Assembly: GCA_012799455.1 (NCBI GenBank)
Contig: JAAZLE010000105.1
Coordinates: 1 to 42,775 of the forward strand
Source: Clostridiales bacterium
Lineage (GTDB): Bacteria; Bacillota; Clostridia; Christensenellales; DTU072
Direction: 5' to 3'
Length of the DNA stretch: 42,775 nucleotides
Positions within the stretch are counted from its first letter, which is position 1. Each line of letters starts with the position of its first letter. Positions 10,501 to 41,323 of the stretch are shown here, piece by piece. The notes beneath the pieces were generated by a model. That model did no database searches and was not told where the DNA came from. It saw only the letters and a list, made by a program, of their open reading frames with translations. The translations under genes and the position numbers were made by a program.

Positions 10501-13500
10501 GTTGTAGTTTGTATAAGATCTAAACGATAAACCACTTATAGTGTATGTTCCTATATTATCTGTTAGCACCGACACAGTGACACCATGCTGAGGTATACTT
10601 CTACGATTAATGTGCTCATAGGAAACTGATCCTTGCACCCCTGGCTCTGGGTCATATAGGTATAATACACCATCTGTAATTTCTTTAAACACAGTCATAA
10701 AGGTATCATCATATACAAATCCCTTCTCTCTGTCTACAACCGTAAACTTGTTCGGAACATCTTCTGCATCAACTGCATAGAAATCTTCAAAGCCATATTG
10801 CCCATATACTAATTTAGCTCCCTCAAAAAGGCCATCTTTATTCCTTGCTATTCTTGCTATATATGGACCAATGCTATATCCTCTATTCTTAACATTGACC
10901 ATCACCGAATCAAACGCTTCAGCAACTGGGAATTCCATTCGGTTATATAAGTAAGAATAATCATATGTTAAAGTCGCAGGATCAGTTAACTCTCTTTCGT
11001 ATAAAACAGGCATACGGTTATTAATATTTAAAAGTGGGCTCTTAACATATACATATATAGTTTTACGACTGACCATCAATCTAGTTTCTACTAGTGTGAA
11101 CGTATAGTTAACTAGCTGATTATTTAATACCTCTGTTGGGAAATAGACTTGCGTGTCATTTAATATAGTTTCACCAACATTTTGTCTAAAGTTAATAGTT
11201 GGCTCATTATCTCCACCTTTTTCGATCTTAAGCCCTGAAGGAGTATCATGGCTAGCTAAGTTTGTATATGCAATTCTATATGGAATACTAGCCTTGTTCT
11301 CAGCAGAACCGTATACCGTATTAATAATATTTTGTCCCGTGTTAGACTCTACCCTATATGTAACTTTTCTCTTTTCTATCTTCAAATCATATGAAGCTTC
11401 AAAACTAAATCTATAATTGTCTAATACATACTTAGCACCCGGTTGATTATATACATTATCATCTAGAACAATGCTTAAATCTGTCGTACTGACTGGTTTT
11501 AAAGGATCTAATGCAGCATCGTTATCACTATAACCTGGATCGTCTTGTTTTAAAAGTTTAGATGAAAAAGCCTGACTACTTACATTAAATCCAGTTGGCA
11601 CAAGAGACCCATCTGTATTCATCATGTATACACTGAAGTTATTGAATGTTGCAGCATCCTTTGCTAAAACCCCATTAAATGCTAAATCTACAAAATTATT
11701 CCCATATACGCGTGTAAGTGCATTTTCTATTGGAGTTAAACGAGGTGTTAATGTCTTTCTTGATATTTTAATCTTAGAACTTATTACTCTAATTTGATAG
11801 TTTCCACTGGCTGAGGAAAAACCTTGAGCTGTTAAAATATATTCACCAACATTTACTATCTGTCCGAATATTTGCCCTTCTGCTATAACATTTGGATTAA
11901 CGTAACAACTATATTCGGGCGATGATACCGCAGCAATCTCGCTTGAAAACTCATGTCCTGTCACTAAACCACCGTATGTATTACGTAGTTTTTCTGCTTT
12001 TACCTCATTAGAATCATCTGCTGTAATTCCAGCTTCAGGCCATAAGAATGCGTAATCATCTCCATAGAACGAACCTGAATTAGCATCAACATAATCATAC
12101 CCTGCCACATCGAAAGTTTGCAGGCTTTGTCCATACTCGATTACATCGAAACTGGAATAGCCGTGGTTACGTAAAACTATTGTAATCATTGCTTTTTCAA
12201 TATAGAAATATTTAGGAGCAGAATCGAGGATTAGATTATAGTTACCAGATGTTTCGCTTATATATTCCTCAAGTGTTGAGTTGTTTTTAATTACAAGTTG
12301 ATACCTACCAATAGCTGCATTAATAGCTAAATCTTCTACTGGTCTTGGATATCCGACAATGGTTGTAATGGTTACTAGTTGCCCCGTCCTGCTATCTCTA
12401 AGTGAGTACCCCAAGTTATCTGGATTGTTTAGATAATGTGCTAAATCTATCTTGGTAGGATAATTAGGATCTTGCTTTCCATTTCCATAGCGAATGGTTA
12501 CATTTTTAGGAACAACTATTATATCGCTCTTAGTTATTCTGGCAACTCTATCCGGCTCTGGATGAGATAATGTGTATTCAATATTTATATCACTGCTTGT
12601 AAAGGTAAACTTATAATCTCCGACATTTACAGATGATGATATACCAGCATCGCCAAACTCAAAGGCTATATATGTATTTTCTGTCTTAATTCGGCGATGT
12701 ACATCTAATATATTATTTTTAGCATAGTCAACTTGTGCACTTGCAACGCTAATGTTACCTGCGTCTAGTCCGTTGATGGCTGCATTTAATGCCTCTTCAA
12801 TGATCGCATAAGTGTTTGAAGTAAAAGTAGTATTATCGGCAGAGAGTATTGTTAAATTACTATTTAATTTGCTTTTTGCACTTGATAAACTATTTAATGC
12901 AGTAGAAAGCATGGTCTGTGCAAAGGGGATATTATCTTCTGTAATTGTTATCTGTGCTATATCTAACCTTAACTTATTGGCAGAATCTGTTATCTCTTTT
13001 AGTCCTGCTTTAAAAGTAGCAAAACTACCATTATTTAAGAAATTCCTAACTTGTGGAAGTGTAATCGTATCCCCAGTTGTCGAAGCTATTTGGGTTTTAT
13101 TAAATGCCATTGGTAACCCATCATAAACTTTTTCCATGCCAGAAATTCTAAGGTTAATAGTCTTTTTATTTATAGTGTAGAAATAGATTTCTTTAAATCT
13201 TACAGTGTAGTTTTTATTATATGTAGAAACTCCAATACTATATTCGCCAGAATCAGAGTTGCTGCCTCCATCGTTGGCTACAACTCGTGTAAATGTAAAC
13301 TGTACCTGTTGTTTTTCTAATGTTATAGCTCCAGCACCAGTATCTACAAAATTAAACATACCAGAAGTGAATGTTGGTGGGTTTTGATCATAACTTTTAG
13401 ATAAGAAGCTCTCAGCAATCTCAATAACAACTTCCTTAGGCACAATTTTGTATTTATAGGCTTTATGTAAAACATAATTGAAGTTGTCATCAATAGAGTT

Positions 13501-16500
13501 TTCTAATATTACAACTGGATGGCTTATTATCTCGCCTTGAGCGTTATATGCTACATCAGCTTTTCCCACTCCTATTGGAGGATTAGTTCCTATGGTAACA
13601 CTTGGATAATCTCCTTCGGGGAATCCTGGAATCTTATTATCAATATCATATTCGTCTTCTGCAAATATAGCATCATATCCGTTATATTCTCTCTGGAAAG
13701 TCAAACCATCGCTTAACAGTTTAGTAGGATCAACCTTAATAACCAGTGTTCTAGGACGAATGGTAAAGGTCATGGTGGGATTATTAGCCTCTATTAACAT
13801 ATAGTTAATTGAATCTGAAATGCTATCTACCTTTGTTGTATATGTTCCTTGCTGGAGTGCTACTTCAGTTGTTAAATAAACTTGTACTGTATCATACAAA
13901 TAATTGTTATTTTCATCAGTTTTTATGGAACCGTCTTCGTTGTATTGATACCTAAGGTCTTCGGGATGTATTCTCGCAGTAATTATGTATTCACTTCCCT
14001 TATATTCCATGTTGTTGGGTAAGTCTATGTAAACTACACGCGCTACAACTGGATTAATTTTATAACTATAGTCTTCTATCAACGTTATATCGTAACTTGC
14101 ACTTTCATATTCTATTTCTATTCCATATGTACCAACATTTTTCGAACCTTGTGTTGCCTTGACATTTATTAGGTTTAATATTTGTGCTGCGTGTGAATAC
14201 GTTCTATATCCACCTTCATAATCTTCTAAAACGCTGATGGCTGCATCTTCGATAGCAGGCTTTCTACCATCATAAACTTTTGTTAAATATTCAGTATTGA
14301 TGGATATATAAAGTTCTTTTTTATAAATTACCAAATAGTTTGTGGTGTAGTTAATTGTGTAGTTAGGATTGCTTGTAGCTAAATTATTTATTCTTATCAG
14401 ATATTCACCAACGCTTTCCCCAGAATCGCGAGCTAGTGTCCCTACTAAAGTTTCAGTTACCACATGATTATTTATCATTTGTGGATTTCCGTACTCATCG
14501 AGCAAAACCACCAATCCTGACGCAGGGTTACCACTAACACTACTTACAGTAAATGTTAAAGAGTCGGGGTCACTCGCCCCATACTCTTTAGAAAACGCAT
14601 GAGCAACAACAGATACTGGTCTAGGTATAACATGTACGCTTCCAGCAGAGATATGTAGCGCATAGTTTTTATTACTGTCGACTTGCACTTCTATATTTGG
14701 CATTATCTGATATGTGCCAACTGGACTTAAATATGTCATGCTATGACTAAATGTTAATACACCTAATTCGTCTGGCGTGTCTCCAGCTGCAAACACATTT
14801 GTTTGGTTTGTATGAGAGACATCACTGTAGTATCTCACAACTGGAGCAGGAACAGGTTCTCCATAAACCCTAGTTGTACTTTCTGCTCTAATATATACAT
14901 CCCGTTTTAAGATAGTCACATATTTAGGGTCTTCTGTATATCCAGGATCATTGGGATTTACACTGTTATTAAATACAATTTCATAGTTAGTGTCATTTCT
15001 GCCTAAATCTCCCTTAACAACCAAATAACTACCTACATTGTGAATGTTAGGAGTTTCTCTATTTAGCATGCCATGTAGTTGATCTGTTCCGTAAAGCCCA
15101 CTGTCTTCTATACCAGCAACTTCCTCTGCCCTATACTCTATTGGAGGCATAGAAAATCCATATACATAACTCATATTCTCAGGGATTATTTGCACCTTTC
15201 TCTTGGTTACATTGAACACTGAATCTTCAAATATAACTTCATAATTCGAATTCTGGTTGTCCAAAACTGCATCGATAAACATCATGCTATATTCTCCAAA
15301 GGGAGAAGATTCACCTAAGGCATTTCCGAGTCTGATGATTTCAAAATTGAACATATTTAGCATTACAGGCAAACCAGTACTTGGGTTAATAAATTTTTGC
15401 CCACTACTATTACTTAGGTAAGCAATGCTTGGATAATACCCGCTACTTATCTCACTAAATCCTTCTGAATATTCAAATAATGAAAGTGGGTTTTCTAATA
15501 TTGCATCTGTTTTTCTGCCCTTTAAAACCATTAAAATCTCAGGATTTCCTGTTCCATAAATTTTCTTCTGCCCAGGATAAAAAGACATATATAATTTTTT
15601 TCTGTGAATAACTAGATGTTTTTGAGAATCCTGAAATACATTATGGATAGCATCGCCTTCATAACTGTTTTCTGCCCCTCCGTTATATGTAACAACTATC
15701 ACGTATTCACCAGCGTTTTTAGGCACTACAGTATAGTCTACGCTTGGATTCATCGTCTTGTTCAGCCATGTATTTAACTCTATGTATTCGACTATGAAAT
15801 CGGCTGCATTTATTTTTCTAGTTCTGGTTGTTTCATCGAATTGATTATATCCCCAAAGCTCTATTTGTATGGCGATGGTCATTCCGTATATGAATTCGTA
15901 CGTGTCATCAGGATTAGCATAGCGAACTTCTAAGTTCCTTCTGTTTCTCACCACCACCTTATAGCTAGTTGATAAAGTATCGCTTAACAATTCGTTTGAT
16001 GAATAGTTTATTATTATTTCTTGAACCTTGTCATAGCCTTCAAACTCTGAACTGTCGAAGTTTTCAGTAGAAATATTAAATGGAGTCTGAGCATTATCTA
16101 AAACAGCTTCAGACAGCTGCTTTGTAATAGCATCGCCATTATCATAGTAAGCGGTTATAGATCCGGTAGAAACATCAAAAGGTTCTCTTTCTATATAATA
16201 GCGTTTGGGTATTTCATTAAGTTCTACTTTAACTAAAGTCCTTTCTACAACTTGAATAGTTGTTTCAACAGTTAATGTAACACCATTGAAGGTGTATGTA
16301 ATAGAAATCTCTCTATCTCCGACCGTTCTATTAGCCTTATCGTAGCCGTTTACGTTATTAACTGAATGATAAGCGATGTGTGATTGTTCTAATGGCACAT
16401 ATTTAGGCTCATCTGTTTGACCAGATGTCACAAAACCAAGTTTCAACTTAATGCCTGCGATTTCAGCATCAGCCCCTTGTATAGCTCTAAGCGCAGGGCT

Positions 16501-19500
16501 ACCAGGCGCTATAGATATATCATTTAGTGTACTTTGTAATTTAATGACATATACCGGCAAATACACGTTTTGTAGAGATGTACTAGTAAATCTAAACCTT
16601 ACGTTTTGCCCTGCTGAACTATCTTTTTCGTAGTCTAATACAACTAAGTCGTTATAAAGTGTGTCAAACCTTATTTCATCACTGGTGTTATCTGAATATC
16701 TTATAACCACAAACAAATTACTAAACTGAGTAGCATAATACTCAACTAAATCACTATCGGTGTAATTGGCAGTGTACAGTTCTTCAATGATTAAATCTTC
16801 GCCCACACGTAAAGAAGCATATGGCCTCTTTTTTTCACCTACTGTTTCCCAGTATACATTTGTCTCACTAGCTTTCCACTCTATACTAGAAACCTCAGGA
16901 CCTAGCACCCTTACATTAAATGAAGTTTCCCAAGTAACACTGTTAGAATCCAGGTATGTAACCCTTACTGTCTTAACACCTGGGATTATGGCATCAAACC
17001 CTGCAAACCCAAGTACATGAGTACTCAAAGCTTGGTCAATATCAATATTTGTGGAAGTTCCATTGTTATATTTCAAATGAATTACTACACCTGATGGGTC
17101 TAGAACCACACTGCTGTCACCCTTGTTATATTCGGTCTTATTGGGGAGTTTTACAACCTCAATGCCCGTGACTGTTTTATCAATCACCGTAACAACGGTG
17201 TTCCTATGCGGGCTTTCTAATTGCTCTGCTGGCGTTTGTGGCACGCTATCTGGGTATACAACAATTTCTCTTTCGGGGAGAGTAGTATTGTGGATATCCC
17301 TATCAAGTATCATCTCAGCCGTTATTTCTTTATATATGGTACCAGCTTCAAATTCAAGTTCAACATAATATCTACCAAACTCTATGGGCTTTCCAGGTAA
17401 AGCTTCTCCCAAACTGTATACTTGATGTAAACTAACCACACCATTTTCTTCTACCTTTTCAAAGAACGGATTATCAGTAAATCTTACGAATTTATTTGTT
17501 ACATCTACATCTATTTCCCTTTGTTCTTCTACAACTACAACCGTGAGCCCCGCATTTTCTACTAGCCCATAGCTACATAGGTATACCTTGATGTCAACAA
17601 CATTGCCATCTTCATCTAAACCACCATCTATGTTGGTAAAGTTCCATGTTTGCTGGCCTGTTTGCGAATCAATTTGAGGGACTAAGTAATCACATCTAAA
17701 ACTCCAACCGTCTCTAATGAATGGGCTTTCTATGTTCGCACTATATTGATATTCAACAGGTTCTAAATTGTCTTCATAATTGACAATGAATTTAAGTCCA
17801 GTTGGATCAAATTCTTGATTTAGAATATAATTCGTTTTTTGAGGGGGAGATGTAATGTCTACGCTTGAAATTTTTCTAATTACATTTACCTCTATAATCG
17901 CATCAAAGTCACTGATGTAATCATCATTATATACAACCCTCGCTTGTTTAATACCAGGTGTCGCACTATCAAGCAAAACATTTTCTGCAAGAAGTGGTAT
18001 GCCTACAACGCCTACAGCAGGCTCACGAATAGTTCCATTAGTATATGTTACCTGCATAAAGACTCCACTTGTGTCAATATTGCCGCCTACATATACCCCT
18101 AAACTATCTATATAATCACCATTTGCATCAACAAACCTAATAGATTCTTCATCTAACTCAAGCGGGAGTATCTGAATGGAATATTCAACTTCTAGAGTCT
18201 CGCTAACCTTTACAAGCCAAATAACATCCCCTGCTTCTTCATATTTTAAAACTTGTTCTCCACCCTGCCAATTTACCATACTTAGTGCAAACGGTCTTGG
18301 TGTTGAGTGCTCACCATTTGAATATACTATCTGGTATGTCCAGGCCGAAACATCAATCTCTGCTCCTTGATATATAGGGGAGTGGTTGTCATCGATTAAA
18401 ATCCCCTCGGCTACTCTCGCCTCTATGTTTAAAGTAATTGTCTTTTTAGTGGCAAGTAAAACCAGCCCGTTTTCGGAAGGATACCAAAACTCAACTTCAA
18501 AGGTTTTTGTACCAGCTACTGTGCTATTATAATTTAATACATTTACTTTCTCATTAGGCAAGGCAATTGTCTCTACTGTGTTGTTATTATACTCAATACT
18601 AACCACACATCCATTTAATTCTAACTGTAGATTTTGTTGTTGAATTGGTGGAGGTGTTAATATTTCAAAACGCTTTATATCCCTATCAGTAACTTTTACC
18701 TTAAAACTTGACTCAACCCTATCGTACGTAAACTCCACTTTGCTTTCCGCAGTTTTTATAGAATTATCCCATGATACGATTTCTAAACCTGGTAATATTC
18801 TCCCTTCTGCATCTACCATATCCATCTCTACGGAATAGCCATTACTGTACATTACATGAAGTTTTCCACCAAGCAGGCTTAACTCTTCACCAACATAGTA
18901 GATTTCTTTAGTAGGTTTTGTTATTACCTCAACGCTAACTACCGATTTTTCTGCAACCTGCACATTGAACTCGCCATAAACTGTTTTGTCGCCGTACTTA
19001 TATTCTACTGTAATTATCTGCGCTTCGGTCTTACTTGGATCGAAGCCACTGCACATATCTTCCGTTATTGGGATAGTTACAAATTCGCCATCTTCTAATT
19101 CTAAATATAGGAAAGCATCACTTAAATTAAGGTTTTGACCTTCAACCAGATTGGAATTTATCTCTGGCAAATCAATACGAGTGGTTGTAACATCTCTAGC
19201 AACCACATTAACTTCTATAGTAGCTGTTCTGTCATTGTAGGAAACTACTAAAAACTGTCTACCCCATTTTTTATTATCAAAACTTGACACCATATCAGGG
19301 GTAATTTCAATGATACTATCAGTGTTATCTTCATAAATTATTCTAAGTTGGGCGCCAGTCAAGTCTAATGCTTCGCCTTCTTTGTACACCGTTTTAGTGG
19401 GAGCATTATATATTTCGACAGTATTTATATTTGCTGGCTTAGAACATGCAAAGAGTATACTCACTGAACCCAGTGCAAGTATAATTATCAAAAGCAAAAC

Positions 19501-19554
19501 CAAAAAAATCTTTTTATTCATAAACCTAAAATGCTTTTTTCTTCCACGCATCAT
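7519..19554 (-). CDS. Giant Ig-like/MBG repeat surface lipoprotein (4011 aa)
   Basis: Probable cell-surface adhesin or scaffold. The N-terminus has a basic stretch, a hydrophobic segment and a lipobox-like LFAC (Cys about 37), so lipid anchoring is likely. Residues about 45-1250 are tandem bacterial Ig-like (group 3 type) domains with the signature Y..GE.LDLTG...Y.(D/N)..T, then G...V.V.Y. Residues about 1330-2870 hold at least twelve MBG-type repeats, each starting with a (K/R)xYG or YDG motif, for example RVYGEPVPAP, KEYGASDPDS and KVYDGRKPAI. One repeat is split by a helical insertion near 2155-2290. Residues about 3190-3950 look like three concanavalin/LamG-like beta-sandwich domains. No LPXTG motif or C-terminal membrane helix is present; the protein stops at SLVDDTAPAV. 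The ATG at 19554 lacks a clear ribosome binding site; Met12 (19521) is an alternative start. Function is inferred from architecture only. Confidence 0.85.
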   Translation of the reverse strand: MMRGRKKHFRFMNKKIFLVLLLIIILALGSVSILFACSKPANINTVEIYNAPTKTVYKEGEALDLTGAQLRIIYEDNTDSIIEITPDMVSSFDNKKWGRQFLVVSYNDRTATIEVNVVARDVTTTRIDLPEINSNLVEGQNLNLSDAFLYLELEDGEFVTIPITEDMCSGFDPSKTEAQIITVEYKYGDKTVYGEFNVQVAEKSVVSVEVITKPTKEIYYVGEELSLLGGKLHVMYSNGYSVEMDMVDAEGRILPGLEIVSWDNSIKTAESKVEFTYDRVESSFKVKVTDRDIKRFEILTPPPIQQQNLQLELNGCVVSIEYNNNTVETIALPNEKVNVLNYNSTVAGTKTFEVEFWYPSENGLVLLATKKTITLNIEARVAEGILIDDNHSPIYQGAEIDVSAWTYQIVYSNGEHSTPRPFALSMVNWQGGEQVLKYEEAGDVIWLVKVSETLEVEYSIQILPLELDEESIRFVDANGDYIDSLGVYVGGNIDTSGVFMQVTYTNGTIREPAVGVVGIPLLAENVLLDSATPGIKQARVVYNDDYISDFDAIIEVNVIRKISSVDITSPPQKTNYILNQEFDPTGLKFIVNYEDNLEPVEYQYSANIESPFIRDGWSFRCDYLVPQIDSQTGQQTWNFTNIDGGLDEDGNVVDIKVYLCSYGLVENAGLTVVVVEEQREIDVDVTNKFVRFTDNPFFEKVEENGVVSLHQVYSLGEALPGKPIEFGRYYVELEFEAGTIYKEITAEMILDRDIHNTTLPEREIVVYPDSVPQTPAEQLESPHRNTVVTVIDKTVTGIEVVKLPNKTEYNKGDSSVVLDPSGVVIHLKYNNGTSTNIDIDQALSTHVLGFAGFDAIIPGVKTVRVTYLDSNSVTWETSFNVRVLGPEVSSIEWKASETNVYWETVGEKKRPYASLRVGEDLIIEELYTANYTDSDLVEYYATQFSNLFVVIRYSDNTSDEIRFDTLYNDLVVLDYEKDSSAGQNVRFRFTSTSLQNVYLPVYVIKLQSTLNDISIAPGSPALRAIQGADAEIAGIKLKLGFVTSGQTDEPKYVPLEQSHIAYHSVNNVNGYDKANRTVGDREISITYTFNGVTLTVETTIQVVERTLVKVELNEIPKRYYIEREPFDVSTGSITAYYDNGDAITKQLSEAVLDNAQTPFNISTENFDSSEFEGYDKVQEIIINYSSNELLSDTLSTSYKVVVRNRRNLEVRYANPDDTYEFIYGMTIAIQIELWGYNQFDETTRTRKINAADFIVEYIELNTWLNKTMNPSVDYTVVPKNAGEYVIVVTYNGGAENSYEGDAIHNVFQDSQKHLVIHRKKLYMSFYPGQKKIYGTGNPEILMVLKGRKTDAILENPLSLFEYSEGFSEISSGYYPSIAYLSNSSGQKFINPSTGLPVMLNMFNFEIIRLGNALGESSPFGEYSMMFIDAVLDNQNSNYEVIFEDSVFNVTKRKVQIIPENMSYVYGFSMPPIEYRAEEVAGIEDSGLYGTDQLHGMLNRETPNIHNVGSYLVVKGDLGRNDTNYEIVFNNSVNPNDPGYTEDPKYVTILKRDVYIRAESTTRVYGEPVPAPVVRYYSDVSHTNQTNVFAAGDTPDELGVLTFSHSMTYLSPVGTYQIMPNIEVQVDSNKNYALHISAGSVHVIPRPVSVVAHAFSKEYGASDPDSLTFTVSSVSGNPASGLVVLLDEYGNPQMINNHVVTETLVGTLARDSGESVGEYLIRINNLATSNPNYTINYTTNYLVIYKKELYISINTEYLTKVYDGRKPAIEDAAISVLEDYEGGYRTYSHAAQILNLINVKATQGSKNVGTYGIEIEYESASYDITLIEDYSYKINPVVARVVYIDLPNNMEYKGSEYIITARIHPEDLRYQYNEDGSIKTDENNNYLYDTVQVYLTTEVALQQGTYTTKVDSISDSINYMLIEANNPTMTFTIRPRTLVIKVDPTKLLSDGLTFQREYNGYDAIFAEDEYDIDNKIPGFPEGDYPSVTIGTNPPIGVGKADVAYNAQGEIISHPVVILENSIDDNFNYVLHKAYKYKIVPKEVVIEIAESFLSKSYDQNPPTFTSGMFNFVDTGAGAITLEKQQVQFTFTRVVANDGGSNSDSGEYSIGVSTYNKNYTVRFKEIYFYTINKKTINLRISGMEKVYDGLPMAFNKTQIASTTGDTITLPQVRNFLNNGSFATFKAGLKEITDSANKLRLDIAQITITEDNIPFAQTMLSTALNSLSSAKSKLNSNLTILSADNTTFTSNTYAIIEEALNAAINGLDAGNISVASAQVDYAKNNILDVHRRIKTENTYIAFEFGDAGISSSVNVGDYKFTFTSSDINIEYTLSHPEPDRVARITKSDIIVVPKNVTIRYGNGKQDPNYPTKIDLAHYLNNPDNLGYSLRDSRTGQLVTITTIVGYPRPVEDLAINAAIGRYQLVIKNNSTLEEYISETSGNYNLILDSAPKYFYIEKAMITIVLRNHGYSSFDVIEYGQSLQTFDVAGYDYVDANSGSFYGDDYAFLWPEAGITADDSNEVKAEKLRNTYGGLVTGHEFSSEIAAVSSPEYSCYVNPNVIAEGQIFGQIVNVGEYILTAQGFSSASGNYQIRVISSKIKISRKTLTPRLTPIENALTRVYGNNFVDLAFNGVLAKDAATFNNFSVYMMNTDGSLVPTGFNVSSQAFSSKLLKQDDPGYSDNDAALDPLKPVSTTDLSIVLDDNVYNQPGAKYVLDNYRFSFEASYDLKIEKRKVTYRVESNTGQNIINTVYGSAENKASIPYRIAYTNLASHDTPSGLKIEKGGDNEPTINFRQNVGETILNDTQVYFPTEVLNNQLVNYTFTLVETRLMVSRKTIYVYVKSPLLNINNRMPVLYERELTDPATLTYDYSYLYNRMEFPVAEAFDSVMVNVKNRGYSIGPYIARIARNKDGLFEGAKLVYGQYGFEDFYAVDAEDVPNKFTVVDREKGFVYDDTFMTVFKEITDGVLYLYDPEPGVQGSVSYEHINRRSIPQHGVTVSVLTDNIGTYTISGLSFRSYTNYNIQYVPMEYEVITQVARLTPATNAVILNSDQASMTGLIKVEAKKVDTTLLGQVSDKNREILVYGESTKITKQGGNFNESGSNNTNQNYFLELKYVDKYSLFASLSSYAVMLEDGSTQTATESRGTLNAGVIEVANKTLQTKVPIRVYDETTDLSHATFVPNYYTGVFVAGTHLNTSGTKRYDRIETSIRLVPVWASDYSVKFIINGTLSSGDYIALIFEKGNFGSARVEAFASNVSIGFSNLSINGMNIFDGFTHDIIISFDKRLGAFSLTYDYKTSAIINVKDIGVGLLSGDTAPITELSDVGFVLTNTNAYLRYFDYIEQGYCDNFATVIKRVNVNLDGRYGQGENGFHFVLRDNKKTSASIDIRKVFSPYKPNSEGQVFKYYINGTLAREISYTTEITEELATLTFGVGASQLEVYVYDNTLLVSSEKVPVLVDFEPYEFTLIKDGSTTPIAPNGGAMTFYTPREFETYPAGITNPIGTSDSAARSRYKLTQYGALNPGLKDAPLVRSMEYSMSFEEVFYETGAGTEIYQPITGSSRFGINMFMNGATYYVDDSTATMRGISLVIDKTTTESAGVFTHSFTGRVMFANRVSSGIVAYNQFSVPLPDVSGINFNDGAVYTFGIYLDRNDIRQYGGNTYLNLRKGSDGLTVRILRNGTPVVNQYIDNAYLKEYATPQLTYSNADFDLLSPIWLAGTAETDNGISISASNTFKVNLYSASINKNNHYNNDYLVDNAFVLRNLEGTEIDASLDTKTVKQSNGMGIPLVSKYENICIDYETISSSSGKFEWHVLGQGVGIDEYFNKGMKLVYDGTNLNFVFYINETNYLAQPLAVPAGGLLNLTSRHKIRFVFDRVRYSTTADTSYNVMAGSLALTEASVDLAVPVIHYGKALVYIDGMEGQTVYFPYYNSGIGWFRPDNAITTGTKYQGEIIQPIATPAANDENAFGQYPQFLNSYNSSAIKITNSKVKLYDYSSYIGSNSFETASLVDDTAPAV
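12680..13085 (-). other. Helical insertion inside an MBG repeat of the giant lipoprotein
   Basis: Between KVYDGLPMAFNKTQIAS and AFEFGDAGISSSVNVGDY, the two halves of one MBG-like repeat, lies about 135 aa rich in Ala, Leu, Asn and Ser with heptad-like spacing (LSTALNSLSSAKSKL, EEALNAAINGLDAG). It looks like a helical bundle of the FIVAR kind found in other surface proteins, inserted into an otherwise all-beta rod. Boundaries are approximate. Confidence 0.5.
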
Positions 19555-19564
19555 TTTTGATGTT

Positions 19565-19573
19565 GCGCGCGCG
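19565..19573. promoter_or_regulatory. 9-nt alternating G/C tract before the giant lipoprotein gene
   Basis: GCGCGCGCG, within TGCGCGCGCGGA (19564-19575), is 11 bp upstream of the ATG at 19554 in very AT-rich DNA. The same 12-mer occurs upstream of the 1251-aa lipoprotein gene (29489-29500). A 10-bp palindrome, CGCACGTGCG, lies at 19594-19603. In the mRNA these blocks could pair (TGCGC with GCGCA) and affect ribosome access. Confidence 0.5.
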
Positions 19574-19616: not shown

Positions 19617-19645
19617 ATTATATACGAACGCGCGTGTATAGTAAA
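19617..19645 (-). promoter_or_regulatory. Candidate promoter of the giant lipoprotein gene
   Basis: Read on the - strand, TTTACT (19640-19645) and a perfect TATAAT (19617-19622) are 17 nt apart. The spacer contains the palindrome ACGCGCGT (19628-19635). Downstream, the leader of about 60 nt carries the palindrome CGCACGTGCG and the GC tract. The remaining bases of the 237-bp gap hold the terminator of the upstream gene. Confidence 0.6.
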
Positions 19646-19733: not shown

Positions 19734-19762
19734 AAAAAAAGGCACTGAATTACTCAGCGCCT
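19734..19762 (-). terminator. Rho-independent terminator after the Y1-like gene
   Basis: On the - strand, AGGCGCTGA and TCAGTGCCT pair over 9 bp (one G-U) around a 5-nt loop, followed by seven T residues. It separates the Y1-like gene from the giant lipoprotein gene, which therefore has its own promoter. Confidence 0.85.
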
Positions 19763-19791: not shown

Positions 19792-20922
19792 TTAGCCTAT
19801 TTCTTCTACTCCTTCTACAAGTCTTAAAACATACTCAGGTTCATGATATATCCCTAATTTCTTTATGCAGGAAACAAAACTTAGTCCCTTCATATCACTC
19901 ATATATCGTATAAGTTCAACTAAAAATCCGTAGTTGGGATAGGCAAGACCTAGTACATTCATTATGTAATCGTAAGAGTATCCAGTACGGTTTGACATCA
20001 CAACTACTACATCAATTAAAGTGGAACGAGCTTTACTATTGCTTGTAAATTCTATTCCTAGATTACTTATCGATTCATCATAGGTTTGATCAAAGGTAAG
20101 AGCTAAATCAACTATAACTTTAATTAGCATTTCATACTTGTTTTCCTCATTTAAGTCCAGACGTTTAGTTATGTAGTCAAACGAATAGCCCCCTCTTTCA
20201 TTCAATTCGGTAATAGCCCTATGCATAACATCATTAGGCACCCTGTCTCTATCATAATAGCCATAATCAACCATTATATTGTCCATAATTACATCAAACT
20301 TATCTAACTCTGGTAAGTTTACAAAATCTGCAGGTAAAAATCTAGGACCCTTGGCGTGAGCAGCGCCTAAAATAGCATCTCCTTCCTCAACTTCTCCTAC
20401 CATGAAATAAAATGAGTTTAGATTGGCAATTCCAGTGCCTGGTCTTTCGTTATACGAACTAAACTCATAACTATACGAGTCTGATAATCTGGTCGCATAA
20501 GGTTGCGAATGTACAATCATAATGCTATCGGCTACGTCTAAAAGATCTTTTATGCGCTTACTTCTAACAGTTGTCTTGAAGACATAACCAGCACCTTTAT
20601 AATATTTATTGTAGTATTGTGAGTATGCCTTGTTGACAGCTTGCATCATGCGCATATGGGAAACTGTTTGTTGATCAAATGTTGCAACAATAAAGTATGC
20701 TCTATTTGTGACAAGCGTGTATGCCAAAATCTCCACAGGAAATGTGGGTAGGATTGTTTTTATGCAATTGAGATAGTATGCCTTTGACTCAGGTGTAGGG
20801 AATGCAATACTCCCTCTTTTACCATCTACAACTAATCTGTAAAAGTAAGGTTTTTCACTATTTCTAGCCCCCACTCTTAAGTTTGGATTTTCAGGTCTTC
20901 TTTTGAAACGTACTTTAGCCAT
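19792..20922 (-). CDS. Degenerate Y1/REP-associated transposase-like protein with helical repeats
   Basis: 376 aa. Residues about 20-160 follow the Y1 (IS200/REP-associated tyrosine transposase) layout: PYFYRLVVDGKRGSIAFPT, then LAYTLVTNRAYFIV, then YNKYYKGAGYVFKTTVRSKRI, then SYEFSSYNE. Key residues are lost. The HUH motif (NHxH in the family) reads NRAY at 73-76, and the position where the Y(K)S tyrosine is expected is Val119. The C-terminal part carries four repeats of about 25 aa, at 232-256, 267-290, 302-326 and 334-358, ending in patterns like GYSYDYIMNVLGL, resembling helix-turn-helix units. It is probably a DNA- or RNA-binding protein rather than an active transposase (inference). An AGGGGG site precedes the start, and a strong terminator follows. 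No inverted repeats marking an insertion sequence were seen. Confidence 0.7.
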   Translation of the reverse strand: MAKVRFKRRPENPNLRVGARNSEKPYFYRLVVDGKRGSIAFPTPESKAYYLNCIKTILPTFPVEILAYTLVTNRAYFIVATFDQQTVSHMRMMQAVNKAYSQYYNKYYKGAGYVFKTTVRSKRIKDLLDVADSIMIVHSQPYATRLSDSYSYEFSSYNERPGTGIANLNSFYFMVGEVEEGDAILGAAHAKGPRFLPADFVNLPELDKFDVIMDNIMVDYGYYDRDRVPNDVMHRAITELNERGGYSFDYITKRLDLNEENKYEMLIKVIVDLALTFDQTYDESISNLGIEFTSNSKARSTLIDVVVVMSNRTGYSYDYIMNVLGLAYPNYGFLVELIRYMSDMKGLSFVSCIKKLGIYHEPEYVLRLVEGVEEIG

Positions 20923-21021
20923 TTTATAGCCCCCTAGAATTTCTATAATGCATTTATTTAAGCGTTAATCTCGTATTATGAGTATCTATTTATCTTGATT
21001 AAGTTACCTAAACTTAAACTT

Positions 21022-21660
21022 TTATTTCTTTATTTTTTCTTTAAAAGCCTTCTCAAAAGACTCTATCGTCACTTCATTATCGCTAGTAATTTCCTTAACT
21101 TTTGAAGTGATGAAATCCTTAGCAGCTCTTTCGACTATCCGGCAAACTTCTAAAGCTTCTTCCATACTTTCGCCACATGCAACTACACCATGACCTGCAA
21201 GTAAACATGCCTTTCTACCCTCCAAGGCTGCAAGCGTATTTTTCGTTAAACTTCCAGTACTTGGAAGCCCGTATTTTCCAACCCTAACATCGCCACCAAC
21301 TATGTTTTTTATTTCATCGTTGATCTCAGGAATGCCAATTCTGGCAGCAGCTAGAGATGAACACCACATAGAGTGAGTGTGTATAACAGCCTTAATTTCG
21401 GGACGAAGCGCATATATTGCGGCGTGTATTTTTCTCTCTGTTGTGGGCTTGTGTTTACCATTATATTCTAATGTTCTTACATTAACTATAACTAAATCTT
21501 CTGGTGTTAACAGTTCATACGCCAGCCCCTTTGGCGTCACAATCATATGATCTTCATCTATTCTTGTAGATAAATTTCCCCAAGTACCCTGTACTAAATT
21601 TTCTTTAACTAAAGTAAGGCTGGTTTCTATTGTCAATTTTCTAATATCTTCATGCGTCAT
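21022..21660 (-). CDS. Class II aldolase/adducin-family enzyme (fuculose-phosphate-aldolase-like)
   Basis: 212 aa, the usual length for zinc-dependent class II aldolases of the FucA/AraD group, which cleave or epimerise phosphorylated ketoses. The catalytic glutamate (Glu75 in KPTTERKIH) and all three zinc histidines (His94 and His96 in VIHTHSMWCSSLA, His157 in AGHGVV) are present, as are GNLSTR and VTPKG for phosphate binding. The substrate could be L-fuculose-, L-ribulose-, L-rhamnulose- or erythrulose-type phosphate; sequence alone does not decide. It is the last gene of a set with an aminotransferase, an FGGY kinase and a degenerate paralogue, whose stop lies 5 bp upstream. An AAGGAG site overlaps that stop, suggesting translational coupling. 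Confidence 0.88.
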   Translation of the reverse strand: MTHEDIRKLTIETSLTLVKENLVQGTWGNLSTRIDEDHMIVTPKGLAYELLTPEDLVIVNVRTLEYNGKHKPTTERKIHAAIYALRPEIKAVIHTHSMWCSSLAAARIGIPEINDEIKNIVGGDVRVGKYGLPSTGSLTKNTLAALEGRKACLLAGHGVVACGESMEEALEVCRIVERAAKDFITSKVKEITSDNEVTIESFEKAFKEKIKK

Positions 21661-21665
21661 TCTGC

Positions 21666-22301
21666 CTACTCCTTTACATCTTCCATTAGTGCTGCTTGTG
21701 TCTGAATACTATACTTTTTCTTATATATTATGTTCATGATTTTAGCATCTATAAACCCTATTTTTTGAGGATTACCAAGTATTGTTGCTTCCACAAACGC
21801 CTTGGCTCCCTTTTCCAAAACTAAAGAACCAGTAAATGCTTCTTCTATAGTTCTGCCCAGTGCTAAAGATTTCCCGGTTTTAATTATGCAAGCATTTCTA
21901 CTTCCCTGAACACATGATAATACATCCATAACACCATCTGTTTTTGCCACTTTAGCAGTAAGCCCAACTATTTGAGCAAAATCATCAAGTAGTGCGGGGA
22001 GTTTTTTTGCATTTCTAGCGACAATACCACAATATGGCGCAGTGTTTAAAATGATAGCATTCCTGTCTGTTTTATACCCGTATATGGCCATATGCAGAGC
22101 TTCGTCTGCGTCTAACTCGTCTCCTCTTTGTTTAATGATAAAATCCGCGGCAGTCAAATCAACCAAATTTACGTCAGGTTTATTTATTATTAACCCATCT
22201 CTATACCGCTCGCTAACTCGATCGCCCTCACATGAAATATTCTCTGCTACTAGCTTTTTAGCTGTTTCTATCATTTTTTCAATCAGCTTATTTTTATTCA
22301 T
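21666..22301 (-). CDS. Degenerate class II aldolase paralogue (pseudo-aldolase)
   Basis: 211 aa, the same length and layout as the next gene, but without the active site. Aligned with its neighbour, the zinc motif HTH becomes NTA (residues 86-88 in IILNTAPYCGIVA), the third histidine becomes Gly143 in KTGKSLALGRTIEEAF, and the catalytic glutamate becomes Asp66. Other landmarks remain (ALHMAIYGYKTDRNAIIL, ACIIKTG, RTIEEAF), so the fold is probably kept. It may be a structural or regulatory partner that forms mixed oligomers with the active aldolase. It has a GAGGAG site and is spaced 5 bp from the aldolase gene. The family link rests on alignment by eye with the neighbour; a role in catalysis is unlikely. 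Confidence 0.72.
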   Translation of the reverse strand: MNKNKLIEKMIETAKKLVAENISCEGDRVSERYRDGLIINKPDVNLVDLTAADFIIKQRGDELDADEALHMAIYGYKTDRNAIILNTAPYCGIVARNAKKLPALLDDFAQIVGLTAKVAKTDGVMDVLSCVQGSRNACIIKTGKSLALGRTIEEAFTGSLVLEKGAKAFVEATILGNPQKIGFIDAKIMNIIYKKKYSIQTQAALMEDVKE

Positions 22302-22372: not shown

Positions 22373-23893
22373 TCAATCTTCAACCGGATGAGTGTTTGCT
22401 TTTTTATATGTCTTTTTTAAATCGTAATAAATATTTTTGTACGTTTTAAACATCCTATCATATACTTCTGCATTAGCAGGGTTTGGCGTGTAAACTTTCG
22501 CTACCTTTGCAAACTTATATGAATCTTCAAAACTTTTTAATTCACCTAGCCCTATCATTGCTATAATTGCCGCTCCTAATGCTCCTGCATTTCTTGGGTT
22601 TGCAATTACACTAAATTCTGTTTTAGTAATGTCCGCAATCATCTGCATCCATACTTTATCTAATGCCCCACCACCTACAATTCTAAATGTCTGGCAAGAG
22701 AATTTATAATCTTTAGCAAAATTTTCCAAAATCCAACGTAAATTAAAACCTATCCCCTCGTATACTGCACGCATTAAATGTTCTCGAGTATGGAATATGC
22801 TTATATTAAACAACGTTGCTCTAGTTGTAGTCGTGCTAACAGGACATCTTTCCCCAAGTAGCCAAGGAGTACAAATAAGTCCGTCACATCCTGGTGGAAT
22901 GTTAATAATGCTTTCGTTCATTTTATCGTATATAGCATCACCATACTTTTCTTTTTCCTCTCTGAAAAACTCATCCATAATCCAGGTAATATTAGCACCA
23001 GCAGATTCAGTAATCCCCGTAATCAGATTCATATCAGGATCGGCGCTTTTTATTGCCGCAGCACCGTGGCTAAACTTAGTCTTGTTTTTACTAGATGCAC
23101 AAACCCAAGCAGACGTTCCTAAATAAATGTGTATATCGCCATCCCTTGTCATGCCGCTTCCTATGCAAGCACTTTGTACATCATCACAACCTCCAAATAC
23201 TGGCGTGCCTGGCTCTAACCCTAATTCTTCAGCAGCCGTTTCGGTTAATGGGCCCACATTATCAGTAGATTTTACAAGTGGTGGCAATTTTTTCATATCA
23301 AGTCCAGTTAATCCAAGGACTGATAACCACTGATTCTTCTTGAGATCTAGTCCATATGCAGAGGCTCCAGACAATTCTGCCACCATCTGCCCCGTACATT
23401 TCATCTTCAAATATCCATTGACATCTAAGAAATATTGCGTTCTTTTGTAAATATCAGGTCTTTCTTCTTTAATCCAAATGAGTTTTGCAATAACGTCTTT
23501 ACCCATAATTGGCGTTCCTGAAAATATCGAAAATATTTTTGGTCCACCTAGTTTATTCATGATGGCATCAGCTTGTTTTTGCGCCCTTCCATCCACCCAT
23601 GAAATATTCGGGTGTAAAACATTTCCTTCTTTATCTACAGGAATGATTCCCATTGACTGTGTCGCAAAGATAATCCCTTTTACGTCTTTTTTGTCAATAC
23701 CTGCCTTTTTGATTAATTCCTTAGAACTGGTACATACCCCTGTCCAATAATCTTCCGGATTTTGTTCCGCCCAACCCGGATAAGGGTAATGGATATCATA
23801 ATCTGCTCTAGTCTGAGCAATTATTTGCCCTGAAAAATCTACTAGTACTGCTTTGTTCGAACTAGTCCCCATATCGAATGCAATTACGTACAT
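22373..23893 (-). CDS. FGGY-family carbohydrate kinase (xylulokinase-like)
   Basis: 506 aa with the chosen start, a normal FGGY length. It phosphorylates a sugar or sugar alcohol with ATP in the cytoplasm. The N-terminal ATPase phosphate-1 motif is IAFDMGTSSNKAVLVD, followed by FATQSMGIIPVD, the catalytic-base region GGCDDVQSACIGSG near residue 236, DIHIYLGTSAWV, and the C-terminal adenosine motif RIVGGGALDKVWMQMIADI with NAGALGAAI. It most resembles xylulokinases, but FGGY substrate calls from sequence are unreliable. The frame is open to an ATG at 23911, yet a GGAGG site precedes the ATG at 23893, which gives the standard MYVIAFDMGTS start. Together with the flanking aldolase genes it suggests a kinase-then-cleave sugar pathway. 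Confidence 0.88.
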   Translation of the reverse strand: MYVIAFDMGTSSNKAVLVDFSGQIIAQTRADYDIHYPYPGWAEQNPEDYWTGVCTSSKELIKKAGIDKKDVKGIIFATQSMGIIPVDKEGNVLHPNISWVDGRAQKQADAIMNKLGGPKIFSIFSGTPIMGKDVIAKLIWIKEERPDIYKRTQYFLDVNGYLKMKCTGQMVAELSGASAYGLDLKKNQWLSVLGLTGLDMKKLPPLVKSTDNVGPLTETAAEELGLEPGTPVFGGCDDVQSACIGSGMTRDGDIHIYLGTSAWVCASSKNKTKFSHGAAAIKSADPDMNLITGITESAGANITWIMDEFFREEKEKYGDAIYDKMNESIINIPPGCDGLICTPWLLGERCPVSTTTTRATLFNISIFHTREHLMRAVYEGIGFNLRWILENFAKDYKFSCQTFRIVGGGALDKVWMQMIADITKTEFSVIANPRNAGALGAAIIAMIGLGELKSFEDSYKFAKVAKVYTPNPANAEVYDRMFKTYKNIYYDLKKTYKKANTHPVED

Positions 23894-23899
23894 ACTAAA

Positions 23900-23904
23900 C
23901 CTCC
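23900..23904 (-). promoter_or_regulatory. Ribosome binding site that fixes the kinase start
   Basis: GGAGG on the - strand lies 6 nt upstream of the ATG at 23893. The more upstream in-frame ATG at 23911 overlaps this region and has no site of its own. Confidence 0.75.
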
Positions 23905-23991
23905 ACCACAATCTTTAGTAAATATCTAACTCTCGTAGTAGTTTCCCAAAAGTAGAAAACTACCACTTGAGTTTTTTACTATTTTGCTTTT

Positions 23992-25524
23992 TTATACCTT
24001 TTGTTTCAGATATCTCTCCATATCTTTTTTCTTTAAGCCCTTATCGGTTTCAACTACGGTTGAGAACACCTTATCAAATCTGGATAGTGCGTCATCAATA
24101 ACTTCATCAGTATCCGCAAGTGAGGTATATAGTCTAGAGCCTGCTAGCGTTACTATTCCATTTGCCATATATGCAGCACCCATAACTTCCATAGAAACCT
24201 TTCTTTCTACCATTACCTTCTTGTTAGATAGTAGATTTAGGGCTGAACGTATAAAGCTCATTGAGGATGCATCAAAGCTCATAGCGCCAGTACACTCTAA
24301 GTGCACAATACTGCCTTGGCTATATGCAACAAACGGAATCTTATATTTAGCAATAAGCTTACGTAGTCCCTCTGTTAACCTTTCTCCTGCCTGACCTGCT
24401 TTGACACATGCATTGGTTCTTTCTATTTCTTTTATAGTTAAGTATCCAGCATATGAAGAGAGTGGGTTTGCTGCCAATGTCCCGCCTACGTAGGCACGGT
24501 GTTTACCTGTTGCGACACCTGCTGCCATCAAACCTGCATATTCTTTCTTTCCGCCTACTCCACCTGCTGCAGGATATCCCCCTGCGATAACTTTACCAAA
24601 TATAGTAAGATCGGGCTCTATGCCAAAATATCCTTGTGCTCCACCTAAGCCTACTCTAAATCCAGTAACAACTTCGTCCATAATAAACAATGCACCATAT
24701 TTATGAGCTAATTTCATTGCCTCTTTATTATAGTCAAAAGAAATTGGTCTTGTTCCACTTTCTGGTCCTACTGGCTCAACAATAACTGCTGCAGTTCCGC
24801 CTTTGAATTTGTTCCTAAATAACATACGCTCTAGCATATCTAAGTCATTTGGTCTAACTTCGTCAGTTAATGATAAAACCTTTCTAGGTATACCATGGCT
24901 TTCGAGCAAGTTCCTGCTTCCTGGAATCTTCAGTCCGTAAACCATTTGGTCCGACCAGCCATGATAGGCTCCACCTACTTTTATTACTCTTTTATGTCCA
25001 GTTTCAATTCTTGCAATTCTTAGTGATGCCATTACACTCTCTGTTCCAGAACCTAACATTCTGAACATTTCAACTGCTGGCATATGCTTGTTAATTTCTT
25101 TTGCAAGTAAAAGCTCTGCTTCGTGCAATAGTCCCGTTACTGGACCACAGGTATCTATAAGTTTTTTAACCTCTTCTCTAACCGGAGCGTAGTTTGACCC
25201 AAGTATTGTAGGCCCTCCCGCTTGTAAGAAGTCAATATATCTATTGCCATCTACGTCATAAAGATACGCACCCTCTGCGCGTTCAATTGCGAGTGGAAAT
25301 GGATAATTGAATGCTAAATTGTGTTGTACTCCCCCAGGAATAAATTTCTTTGCTTCAGTTGCTAATGCTTTTGATTTAGTACATTTTGTTTCAAAATATG
25401 CCTTTACTTTCTCGTGTTCTTCAGCTGAAATTTCAAAAATTGGAACATGTCTTAAATTTTCAAGCTCCTGATTAATTTTTGCTGGATCATCCCACTTACT
25501 AATACTATAAATTTGTTCTGCCAT
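23992..25524 (-). CDS. Class III PLP aminotransferase (glutamate-1-semialdehyde-aminomutase-like)
   Basis: 510 aa. It has the class III fold-type I layout: KKFIPGGVQHN, YLYDVDGNRYIDFLQAGGP, the phosphate-binding SGTES at 159-163, AYHGWSD, the PLP-ring-binding DEVVTGFR at 283-290, and the PLP lysine Lys311 in FGKVIAGGYPAAG. It resembles glutamate-1-semialdehyde aminomutases but is about 80 aa longer, with about 50 extra residues at the N-terminus, and no other heme-pathway gene is near. In this context, followed by a sugar kinase and a class II aldolase pair, it more likely transaminates a sugar-derived or amino-sugar-like substrate (inference). It has a strong AGGAGG site. It is the first gene of the operon, downstream of a promoter at 25646-25675; the gap to the kinase gene is 98 bp. 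Confidence 0.85.
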   Translation of the reverse strand: MAEQIYSISKWDDPAKINQELENLRHVPIFEISAEEHEKVKAYFETKCTKSKALATEAKKFIPGGVQHNLAFNYPFPLAIERAEGAYLYDVDGNRYIDFLQAGGPTILGSNYAPVREEVKKLIDTCGPVTGLLHEAELLLAKEINKHMPAVEMFRMLGSGTESVMASLRIARIETGHKRVIKVGGAYHGWSDQMVYGLKIPGSRNLLESHGIPRKVLSLTDEVRPNDLDMLERMLFRNKFKGGTAAVIVEPVGPESGTRPISFDYNKEAMKLAHKYGALFIMDEVVTGFRVGLGGAQGYFGIEPDLTIFGKVIAGGYPAAGGVGGKKEYAGLMAAGVATGKHRAYVGGTLAANPLSSYAGYLTIKEIERTNACVKAGQAGERLTEGLRKLIAKYKIPFVAYSQGSIVHLECTGAMSFDASSMSFIRSALNLLSNKKVMVERKVSMEVMGAAYMANGIVTLAGSRLYTSLADTDEVIDDALSRFDKVFSTVVETDKGLKKKDMERYLKQKV

Positions 25525-25708: not shown

Positions 25709-28700
25709 CTAAGGCATAATTGTAAATTTATATCCATCTGCCGGTTGGTCTACTACATTATAATTTCTCCCTATCATAAATAAATAATTCCCAGGTTGTA
25801 CCGGTCTACTTCCTGGTACATGATACGGATCTTCATGGTATGTTGGTTTCATACTTCCATCCTCTAAAAACTCACCGTCCACGTAATAAGTAAGGTCAGC
25901 TTCTTTTATCCTGTGCTGAATATTATTTAATGTGTAGGTAACTTCGTTGCTTAGAGAATTATCTGGTTCTAAATAATTAATTGTAACTCCAGCAGGAATA
26001 TTTTTAGGCATAATTTTAAACTGCATAGTTTCGTTCACAATTTGATATCTATCAGCCTCCGCTGTGGGCATACTGGGGTCTAAGTCTATATATAATCTAT
26101 AACCTATTATGTTCCCAGAAGTATCAAACATGACGTTTTCACCCGGGTCTCTTCTCACTTTTAGATATATTCTGTCTGATCCTTCTAACTCCTGACCGTC
26201 TCCTAAGTTCCACACAAATACGGGGTCTGGAGAACCATATTCTTTTGACACTATCGCACTTTTTACACTAATAACCTTTTTATTCACCTGTAATTTATCA
26301 GTAAGCACAAGTTCGCTACTTACAAAATATGCGTTTTCTACTACAACTATCTTTAAGCCGTATTCTCCTGGAAGTAATGGCGGAACATCCGACCATTCAT
26401 CATTTATCTTGTATTTAATTTGAAACTCAGGAGAAGTGAAACTTGTTACTGTATGTGTAATCTGCGCATTAACAGGAGAGGTAGTCCCGTATCTTTGAGT
26501 ACGATTACTTACTGTATAAGCACAACCCTCACCGCCTAATTGCACTTTTTTATATGTTCTAACAGAAATTTGAGTTTCTTTGTCTGCAAATCCAAGTTTT
26601 ACTACTTGAGTAGCATATAAGCCACCCTCTACCACCTTGTTTTCATCATACCTTGGAGATTTAAGATACATCTCAGACATTGAAACGATTGCATAGGTGT
26701 TTCCGAGAATGTACGGGTCCGGTGAACTTACTGAATTAGCATATGTTAACTTGGCAATTCCATCCCCTAGCCTGAGCGATTGACCAACCGCATAATTTGT
26801 TATACTTGGGAGTTTATATACATCCACCCCTGTCAATACTCTACTTGCTATGTAGATATTTAAATCGGCTATTTTATTGCCATACTTTATCTTAGCAGTT
26901 CTGAACTTGACTAAATTTCCTTCGCTATCATATTCATGATAGTTTTTATCATACGAAGATTTTAAAATGTGATATGGCTGGACATCTACATCATAATAAT
27001 CACCAGTTTCCGTGTATTTTACCTTAAGCTTTAAGTTTCCTGTAGCGACAGCTGGATTTCCATAAACATCTTCATATTCTACATAATAACGAGTGTTAAT
27101 GTCTTCCTTGTAGCCTACTACCCAAACTTGATTTCCATTAACTGTTTGCATGCCCATCTGAGTATGATCAACCATTATGTCATACACGCTGGCTTCTGCA
27201 CCTAAAACTTCTATTTTGTATTTAAACGACAAATCAAAATCCGCAAAATGTCTTGTTACCGTGACTTCCTGCTCGCCTATTGCACTTAAGTCATATCCGC
27301 TAAACGACCATTCAGGGCCTGGATTTGCACCGATTTTTTCTTCTTTTGTCTTCCCATCATCAAATACATATTCAACCACCATCTCAGGATTAAAGCCTGC
27401 AGTTTGATCTGGACTATTTGTATACACATACTGGTCTGCACTACTTAAACGCACTGATGCTACAAGATTTCTTGTTATTTTTATCTCTATTGTCGCGGTA
27501 CAACCCTTGTATCTGACTACAACATTTTGTGTACCTGAGTAAAACTCGTCATACTTAAATAAGTGTTCTTCTTTATTGAATTCTATGTTATGCACCACCG
27601 ATTCTTGTAAATTACTGTGATTTTTGTAGCGTGCAGTCATAGTCAATGTTTCAAAAGGAATATCATTAAAATCTGTATACTCATTATTTGCTAGTGGACT
27701 TACTTCTAATTCATATACTTCCGTTTCTTCCACGTTTATAATAGTTTTTTCAACAATTCCTTCGTAGGTAACAACCAGCTTGTATTGTCCTGTCGTATCA
27801 AATGAATTGGTAGCCACTCCTTCTGGATTTTCGTATGTTACATATTCTTCTGGTATTGGAGACATGGAAACGCTTGCCCCTCTTCTTCTCTGAATCAGCA
27901 TTGTTGATCCCTCGAGAGAAAGTGTAGCTGCATACACCCCAACCCCAACATAATTTCTAGTTGGAGGAATAACTGTAATGCCGACTACATCATTGGGAAC
28001 AACTTTAACCTTGAAACCAGCCAAAACATCTTGGTACTTAAAATTAATCTCCTGATAGCCTAAAGCATCCGTTCTTGACAGGCTAATACTTAAAGAGCTG
28101 CCATCATTGGCGAGCATATTGCTTGTTAGCCTTTTCCAATTAACTGGATCATCAAACTCTTCACCATCAACATCATATGTTTTATTGTTATATAAAATGT
28201 TATATCTGAGATGATCGGTAGTTATTTCCTCACCATCAACAAAATCTCTTGCTAGCTTGTTGTTTATATCTGCAAGTTTTAACTCAAATGGTTTTTTAGG
28301 TATAACATATATAGGTAATTCAACCATCTTATCCGCATGATTTTCGTATTTTATAAATAGTCTATGAGCGCCAACTATTGTATATTGTAAATTTTTAGAT
28401 ATTGCCTCAGTAGTTGCATCGTTTAGATACACATATACTTCAGGAACTTCCATGGAAACAGTTTTTGTATCTCCATTGTCATAGTCAATTTTAAGTTTTC
28501 CATTTGCCCAGTTAATTTTGTCTTTTTCTACAATACTAGTAACAGGCGACTTGTATAAAGTATCTCCAAAAGTGAACCCAATTGTGTCAGGCTGTTCTAC
28601 CATTGTCACCCTACTCACTTTAGGGTATGACACGATGACACCAAGTTCAGTAGGAAGAGTTTTATATCCTGCATATGCAACCCTAACAGGACTTCCATGT

Positions 28701-29488: not shown

Positions 29489-29508
29489 TGCGCGCGCGGA
29501 TATGCGCA
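29489..29508. promoter_or_regulatory. Alternating G/C tract and ATGCGCA block in the leader of the 1251-aa lipoprotein gene
   Basis: TGCGCGCGCGGA (29489-29500) is identical over 12 nt to the element before the 4011-aa gene. Five nt further, TGCGCA (29503-29508) follows. In the mRNA, TGCGC and GCGCA can pair to a 5-6-bp hairpin ending about 25 nt before the start codon and close to the ribosome binding site. Confidence 0.5.
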
Positions 29509-41294: not shown

Positions 41295-41323
41295 ATTTTA
41301 GCACATACGCGCGCGCTAGACAA
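41295..41323 (-). promoter_or_regulatory. Candidate promoter of the 1987-aa surface gene with a G/C tract as spacer
   Basis: On the - strand, TTGTCT (41318-41323) and TAAAAT (41295-41300) are exactly 17 nt apart. The spacer includes the alternating 9-mer CGCGCGCGC (41308-41316). The leader to the ATG at 41224 would be about 65 nt. Confidence 0.55.

Follow-up and report, generated by a model that had tools for sequence, protein, structure and literature searches.

Which role may a transposase-like protein play once its cutting residues are gone, and next to which genes is it kept? This question arises at positions 19,792 to 20,922 of the window, i.e. the whole analysed stretch of 42,775 nucleotides (contig JAAZLE010000105.1, assembly GCA_012799455.1, Clostridiales bacterium). 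ORF analysis and translation display a 376-aa protein encoded on the minus strand, stop included, without frameshift or internal stop, and the gene (hereafter the dead-Y1 gene) is present as a single copy in its own genome. The closest structural relatives, the RAYTs, are termed domesticated transposases. An earlier note, made from the sequence alone, had ascribed to the gene its own ribosome-binding site and terminator, both of which are found:

19792..20922, minus strand: coding sequence of the nuclease-dead RAYT/Y1-derived protein, 376 aa (ORF, translation, single copy, orthologues)
20929..20935, minus strand: ribosome-binding site AGGGGGC (read straight from the sequence)
19740..19762, minus strand: intrinsic terminator 3' of the dead-Y1 gene (1 found versus 0.6 in shuffles)

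Searched by sequence, the 376-aa protein alone yields nothing significant in Pfam, NCBIfam, PHROGs or the PDB. Viral contigs and plasmids hold no relatives, apart from one unannotated phage contig from human faeces (MT835484.1, positions 1230-1613) with 28% identity to the Y1 part of the protein.

Fold and descent of the N-terminal half

20428..20859, minus strand: Y1/RAYT-like core, residues 22-165 (AlphaFold2 model, Foldseek, VIA-align, hhalign)

An alignment of 30 orthologues (A1) served as input for an AlphaFold2 model with a mean pLDDT of 86. Residues 26-143 of the model follow the order E-H-E-E-H-E-H, that is, the beta-alpha-beta-beta-alpha-beta-alpha layout of Y1/REP-associated transposases which the earlier note had read into this half. 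In Foldseek, the top hit is 4er8, the E. coli RAYT in complex with a REP hairpin, and every hit from rank 1 to 30 is a Y1 transposase. VIA-align superposes model residues 22-202 on 4er8 with a Z of 15.2 (146 residues, rmsd 3.1), the next match reaching a Z of 9.9. Based on the order of elements, the Foldseek ranks and this Z, the assignment of the N-terminal half to Y1 is solid, and the protein shares the core fold of RAYTs.

Profile comparison extends this kinship to the sequence. Between the dead family and a set of HUH-bearing RAYTs, hhalign reports a probability of 99.6% (E 1.5e-24, 234 columns), and the two are collinear as far as the C-terminal HTH of the RAYTs, which coincides with the first C-terminal repeat (R1, see below). 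Searches with the 376-aa protein and the A1 profile also retrieve proteins about 250 aa long from further families of the same order. Several of these score above the PF01797 (Y1_Tnp) cut-off, some with C-terminal HTH matches, and most carry HUH and tyrosine, one set (f32) being degenerate. None of the 30 A1 members scores above the PF01797 cut-off.

In three genomes (G003, G004, G018) the dead-Y1 protein carries an extra N-terminal domain, residues 1-105. Its likeness to the N-terminal half of the Y1 core is weak (hhalign 59%, E 1e-4), and it is possibly a duplicated core.

Loss of the active site

20695..20706, minus strand: lost HUH motif site, N73-R74-A75-Y76 (active RAYTs N-H-x-H; alignments)
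20515..20517, minus strand: lost catalytic tyrosine site, I136 (E. coli TnpAREP Y115; alignment and profile anchor on 4er8)

As proposed earlier, the NHxH signature of active relatives is replaced by NRAY at residues 73-76, so that the H-u-H position reads R74-A75-Y76. The location of the missing tyrosine needs correction. The RAYT motif YIHxNP aligns with IVHSQP of the dead protein, which puts I136 into the tyrosine column; Val119, named in the earlier note, sits in the preceding strand. In the RAYT profile, YIhnnP aligns on residues 115-120 of 4er8 (E. coli TnpAREP), where Y115 is the catalytic residue (PMC8266576). The third metal ligand of 4er8/TnpAREP, N119 (PMC6006769), corresponds to Q140 here. 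With HUH pair, tyrosine and third metal ligand all replaced in the 376-aa protein, strand cleavage is unlikely, and its loss is well supported by these alignments.

Across 36 aligned members, both HUH histidines never occur together. The second histidine is retained in six (G010, G015, G021, G024, G025, G027); a tyrosine occupies the catalytic column in six, some of them the same members (G005, G009, G010, G021, G024, G025), never together with HxH. Part of genus g9 retains both the second histidine and the tyrosine, which suggests a stepwise loss: an ancestral RAYT in this Clostridia family would have lost the histidine pair first, followed in most lineages by the tyrosine and the third metal ligand, the order being read from present-day members.

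A RAYT-like set in family f32 (L063 4238-4981, L126, L127, L130, L131), about 240-285 aa long and with one match per genome, lacks the first HUH histidine and mostly retains the second as well as the tyrosine. It may represent an independent loss of cleavage.

The C-terminal repeat domain

20149..20244, minus strand: helical repeat R1, residues 227-258 (repeat profiles, model, hhalign; collinear with the C-terminal HTH of active RAYTs)
20044..20148, minus strand: helical repeat R2, residues 259-293 (repeat profiles, model)
19942..20040, minus strand: helical repeat R3, residues 295-327, the most conserved repeat (GYSYDYIM..LGLAYPN)
19837..19932, minus strand: helical repeat R4, residues 331-362 (repeat profiles, model)

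The C-terminal part, modelled alone, reaches a pLDDT of 93 and a pTM of 0.87. Four tandem helical repeats, as stated in the earlier note, are seen in the model and in repeat profiles; their length is about 34 aa instead of the 25 aa given there. Each unit is predicted to consist of a helix of 15-19 residues, a G-[YL]-S turn and a helix of 7-8 residues. Profile comparison relates R1 to R3 with a probability of 90% (E 1.7e-7) and the other pairs with 38-51%; over all six pairs, E lies between 2e-7 and 6e-5 at probabilities of 38-90%, which is above chance.

The collinearity of R1 with the RAYT HTH suggests that the repeats derive from this HTH, whereas direct comparison of single repeats with the HTH profile gives no support (probability 6% or less). 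Repeated HTH-like two-helix units would have been gained at the C terminus of the ancestral protein. Foldseek of the repeat domain against the PDB returns no chain below E 0.001, and the domain is weakly nearer to designed helical-repeat proteins than to any DNA-binding fold.

Conservation and selection

Among 40 sampled genomes of the same GTDB family, mostly drafts, 37 carry one dead copy. The three others are G008, which has a HUH-bearing RAYT only, and G012 and G035, in which none was seen. In the tree, the dead proteins form one clade (support 100/99), and members of a genus mostly group together. The reading frame is intact in the extracted orthologues, and gene order is maintained across seven genera. 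Close pairs of the gene display dN/dS values of 0.03-0.13, next to 0.01-0.13 for the neighbouring enzymes, i.e. the gene is under purifying selection.

Neither of the two findings that the earlier note had named as speaking against its reading was made: a Y1 core is present in the predicted fold, and the HUH motif is missing from the close homologues too, which show no decay either. The cutting residues were lost, helical repeats were gained, and one copy was kept beside a giant surface-protein gene in most members of the family, which argues for a tamed protein and not for a relic. As far as identity alone is concerned, we therefore hold with great confidence that the protein is a dead RAYT which has been domesticated and is under selection.

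In one genome (G003), about 30 PF01797 matches occur, many of them broken by stops, and in another (G000) there are none. The former looks like a burst of IS200-type elements.

The locus and its most constant partner

The gene does not stand alone. It is part of a conserved locus that encodes sugar enzymes, with giant Big_3/MBG lipoproteins as flanking genes:

7519..19554, minus strand: giant Big_3/MBG_2 lipoprotein, 4011 aa, most constant neighbour (Pfam, synteny)
19617..19645, minus strand: promoter-like site TTTACT-17-TATAAT before the giant gene, CGCGCG tract in the spacer (consensus match only)
21022..21660, minus strand: class II aldolase, conserved sugar operon (Pfam, synteny)
21666..22301, minus strand: second, divergent class II aldolase (Pfam, synteny)
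22373..23911, minus strand: FGGY carbohydrate kinase (Pfam, synteny)
23992..25524, minus strand: class III aminotransferase (Pfam, synteny)
25709..29464, minus strand: second Big_3 giant lipoprotein, 1251 aa (Pfam, synteny)

In most relatives outside genus g9, the locus also comprises an MFS_2 transporter. In 31 of the 36 genomes that could be tested, the dead-Y1 gene directly adjoins a giant gene on the same strand (at 2.7 kb in G030); giant genes were clustered here by repeat-rich BLAST links, and clusters do not equal one-to-one orthology. The exceptions are an overlapping antisense ORF in between (G023), one opposite gene in between (G003) and no adjoining giant gene (G004, G009, G018). 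In genus g9, the dead-Y1 gene follows the giant gene at 5-58 bp in 9 of 9 genomes, and in G010, the g9 genome that was checked, the sugar operon lies on another contig. Hence, the giant lipoprotein gene, adjoining so regularly and tightly linked where the sugar operon is elsewhere, is the most constant partner of the dead-Y1 gene.

Candidate nucleic-acid targets

A basic surface was considered as a sign of nucleic-acid binding and rejected. Net charge ranges from -7 to +12 for the core and from -12 to +9 for the C-terminal part, so that such a surface is no trait of the family.

The GC palindromes nearby had been proposed as binding targets. In the genome of origin, GCGCGCGC tracts occur at 5 sites, 3 of them upstream of the three giant genes, and alternating CG tracts lie at 19565-19573, 29490-29498 and 41308-41316 of the window. 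Such tracts are intergenic or situated in promoter regions, where several genomes have them in the spacer between -35 and -10. In the related genome G013 (loci L181-L195), however, numerous unrelated genes have such a tract upstream, and of the ten GCGCGCGC sites in G001 and G002 none lies clearly before a giant gene within 1.5 kb flanks, one preceding a 156-aa lipoprotein-like ORF. Being a general intergenic feature in a relative, the palindromes are no evidence of a specific operator, and we dropped them as candidates.

Strong stem-loops of 13-15 bp without a U-run are found in several genomes some 30-100 bases before the dead-Y1 gene (L074, L068, L147, L148, L150, L067, L073; z -4.3 to -5.5). 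They sit in the gap that separates the transporter gene from the dead-Y1 gene, and their sequences differ by lineage. Strong hairpins of this kind occur in part of g4, in g11 and in g2, and are absent in g1, g5, g6, g9 and g10. They might be part of the transporter gene's end and, being limited to certain lineages, were not adopted as a target. By eye, giant-gene leaders in L078, L080, L140, L142 and L145 display, close to the ribosome-binding site, short stem-loops with a UAUGCCC-like stretch that recurs.

Inverted repeats near the dead-Y1 gene are weak ones only, Rfam gives no match at the locus or in the giant-gene leaders, and no shared operator or conserved binding site was found. Regarding the earlier suggestion of a domesticated nucleic-acid-binding protein, domestication is well supported by the clade, the single copy and the dN/dS values, and binding is suggested by kinship of fold, with core charge varying as given above and no conserved site at hand.

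Possible functions

Based on this dataset, we propose that the dead RAYT became fixed beside the giant Big_3/MBG lipoprotein gene and may regulate it. The Y1 core would still grip a hairpin or another structured nucleic acid without cutting it, and the four-repeat solenoid would supply contacts to DNA or to a partner protein. The protein would thereby control the adjacent giant lipoprotein gene, as well as the aldolase/kinase/transporter operon where present. Taken as a whole, i.e. including binding and regulation, the statement of a domesticated, catalytically dead RAYT relative that regulates its locus has in our judgement slightly less than an even chance of being correct. Its more specific form, by analogy with known dead regulators, is put forward tentatively: a family-wide, nuclease-dead TnpA/RAYT with a four-repeat, HTH-derived solenoid may read hairpins or DNA and thereby regulate giant surface lipoproteins, which would make it the TnpA counterpart of TldR.

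The main rival to a regulator is a role in protein interaction. Here, the dead Y1 core would be a fold scaffold only, with no binding of nucleic acid, and the solenoid would make protein-protein contacts, for instance in a cytoplasmic assembly, export or quality-control factor for giant lipoproteins. The variable charge in the family, the weak resemblance of the repeat domain to designed helical-repeat proteins over DNA-binding folds, and the placement of the gene in a tight operon with its giant neighbour in genus g9 are in line with this idea. However, R1 lines up with the HTH of RAYTs, a hairpin-bound RAYT is the nearest match in fold, and the association with the sugar operon in other genera would be left unexplained. 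We consider such a scaffold somewhat unlikely.

A post-transcriptional regulator would bind RNA hairpins in the giant-gene leader, or between the transporter and dead-Y1 genes, and control translation or mRNA stability. Hairpin recognition is natural to Y1 proteins, and candidate structures exist in the upstream stem-loops of several genomes (z -4.3 to -5.5) and in short stems seen by eye beside the ribosome-binding sites of giant genes, likewise in several genomes. The upstream hairpins are nevertheless limited to lineages and track the transporter gene, and no Rfam family matches; action on RNA thus appears unlikely.

RAYTs are single-copy and vertically inherited, and their function is unknown (PMC8049555). 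A role in genome maintenance, such as upkeep of replication forks or repeats, might have been inherited from them, unrelated to the neighbours, the adjacency then reflecting slowly decaying synteny; the neighbouring uvrC-HAD order is conserved, too. This appears improbable, as every residue for cleavage is lost, the gene remains beside the giant gene while the sugar operon of genus g9 sits elsewhere (G010), and two genomes without a dead copy (G008, G012) also lack a close homologue of the aminotransferase of the locus. A decaying transposase remnant, which the loss of catalytic residues would suit, is refuted by open frames in the orthologues, dN/dS values of 0.03-0.13, one copy per genome and a gene order kept across seven genera.

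Comparison with known systems

With RAYT/TnpAREP proteins (class 2 Y1), the dead family has in common the Y1 core fold (4er8), a homologous sequence and single-copy inheritance. The nearest group is RAYT subclass 2.1 of Quentin et al., 2018 (PMC6006769), which has a C-terminal HTH where the HTH-like unit R1 is collinear here. The dead family differs in that no member has the HUH pair and most lack the tyrosine, in that PF01797 does not detect it (0 of 30), in that four repeats take the place of one HTH, and in its fixed position beside a lipoprotein gene. The survey of Quentin et al., 2018 left out sequences in which the HuH or Y motif was incomplete, regarding them as probably without function (PMC6006769). 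In the open-licence literature we found no description of a RAYT clade that is conserved and lacks HUH, which indicates only weakly that none has been published.

Active IS200/IS605 TnpA proteins (IS608, ISDra2) share the Y1 fold with a Z of about 8-10. They are mobile elements with HUH-Y, in contrast to the single-copy gene described here, whose product has no active site.

TldR proteins are nuclease-dead, RNA-guided repressors derived from TnpB and genetically linked to the genes under their control (PMC13418256). The likeness lies in an inactivated, domesticated protein of an IS200/IS605-type element beside a non-transposon gene, flagellin for TldR (PMC13418256) and a giant lipoprotein here. 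The proteins themselves are unrelated, TnpB there and TnpA here, since Foldseek and VIA-align assign a Y1 and not a TnpB fold. Furthermore, TldR works with a guide RNA and its regulation is demonstrated, whereas at this locus Rfam finds no match and regulation is what we infer.

A whole clade without HUH and Y that is kept by selection, and whose gene order hints at a partner, makes a cleavage-independent role of the Y1 fold testable. If giant lipoproteins are regulated by the dead RAYT, this would parallel, on the side of TnpA, the regulators derived from dead TnpB, i.e. the transposase half of IS200/IS605-type elements would have been turned into a transcription or translation factor.
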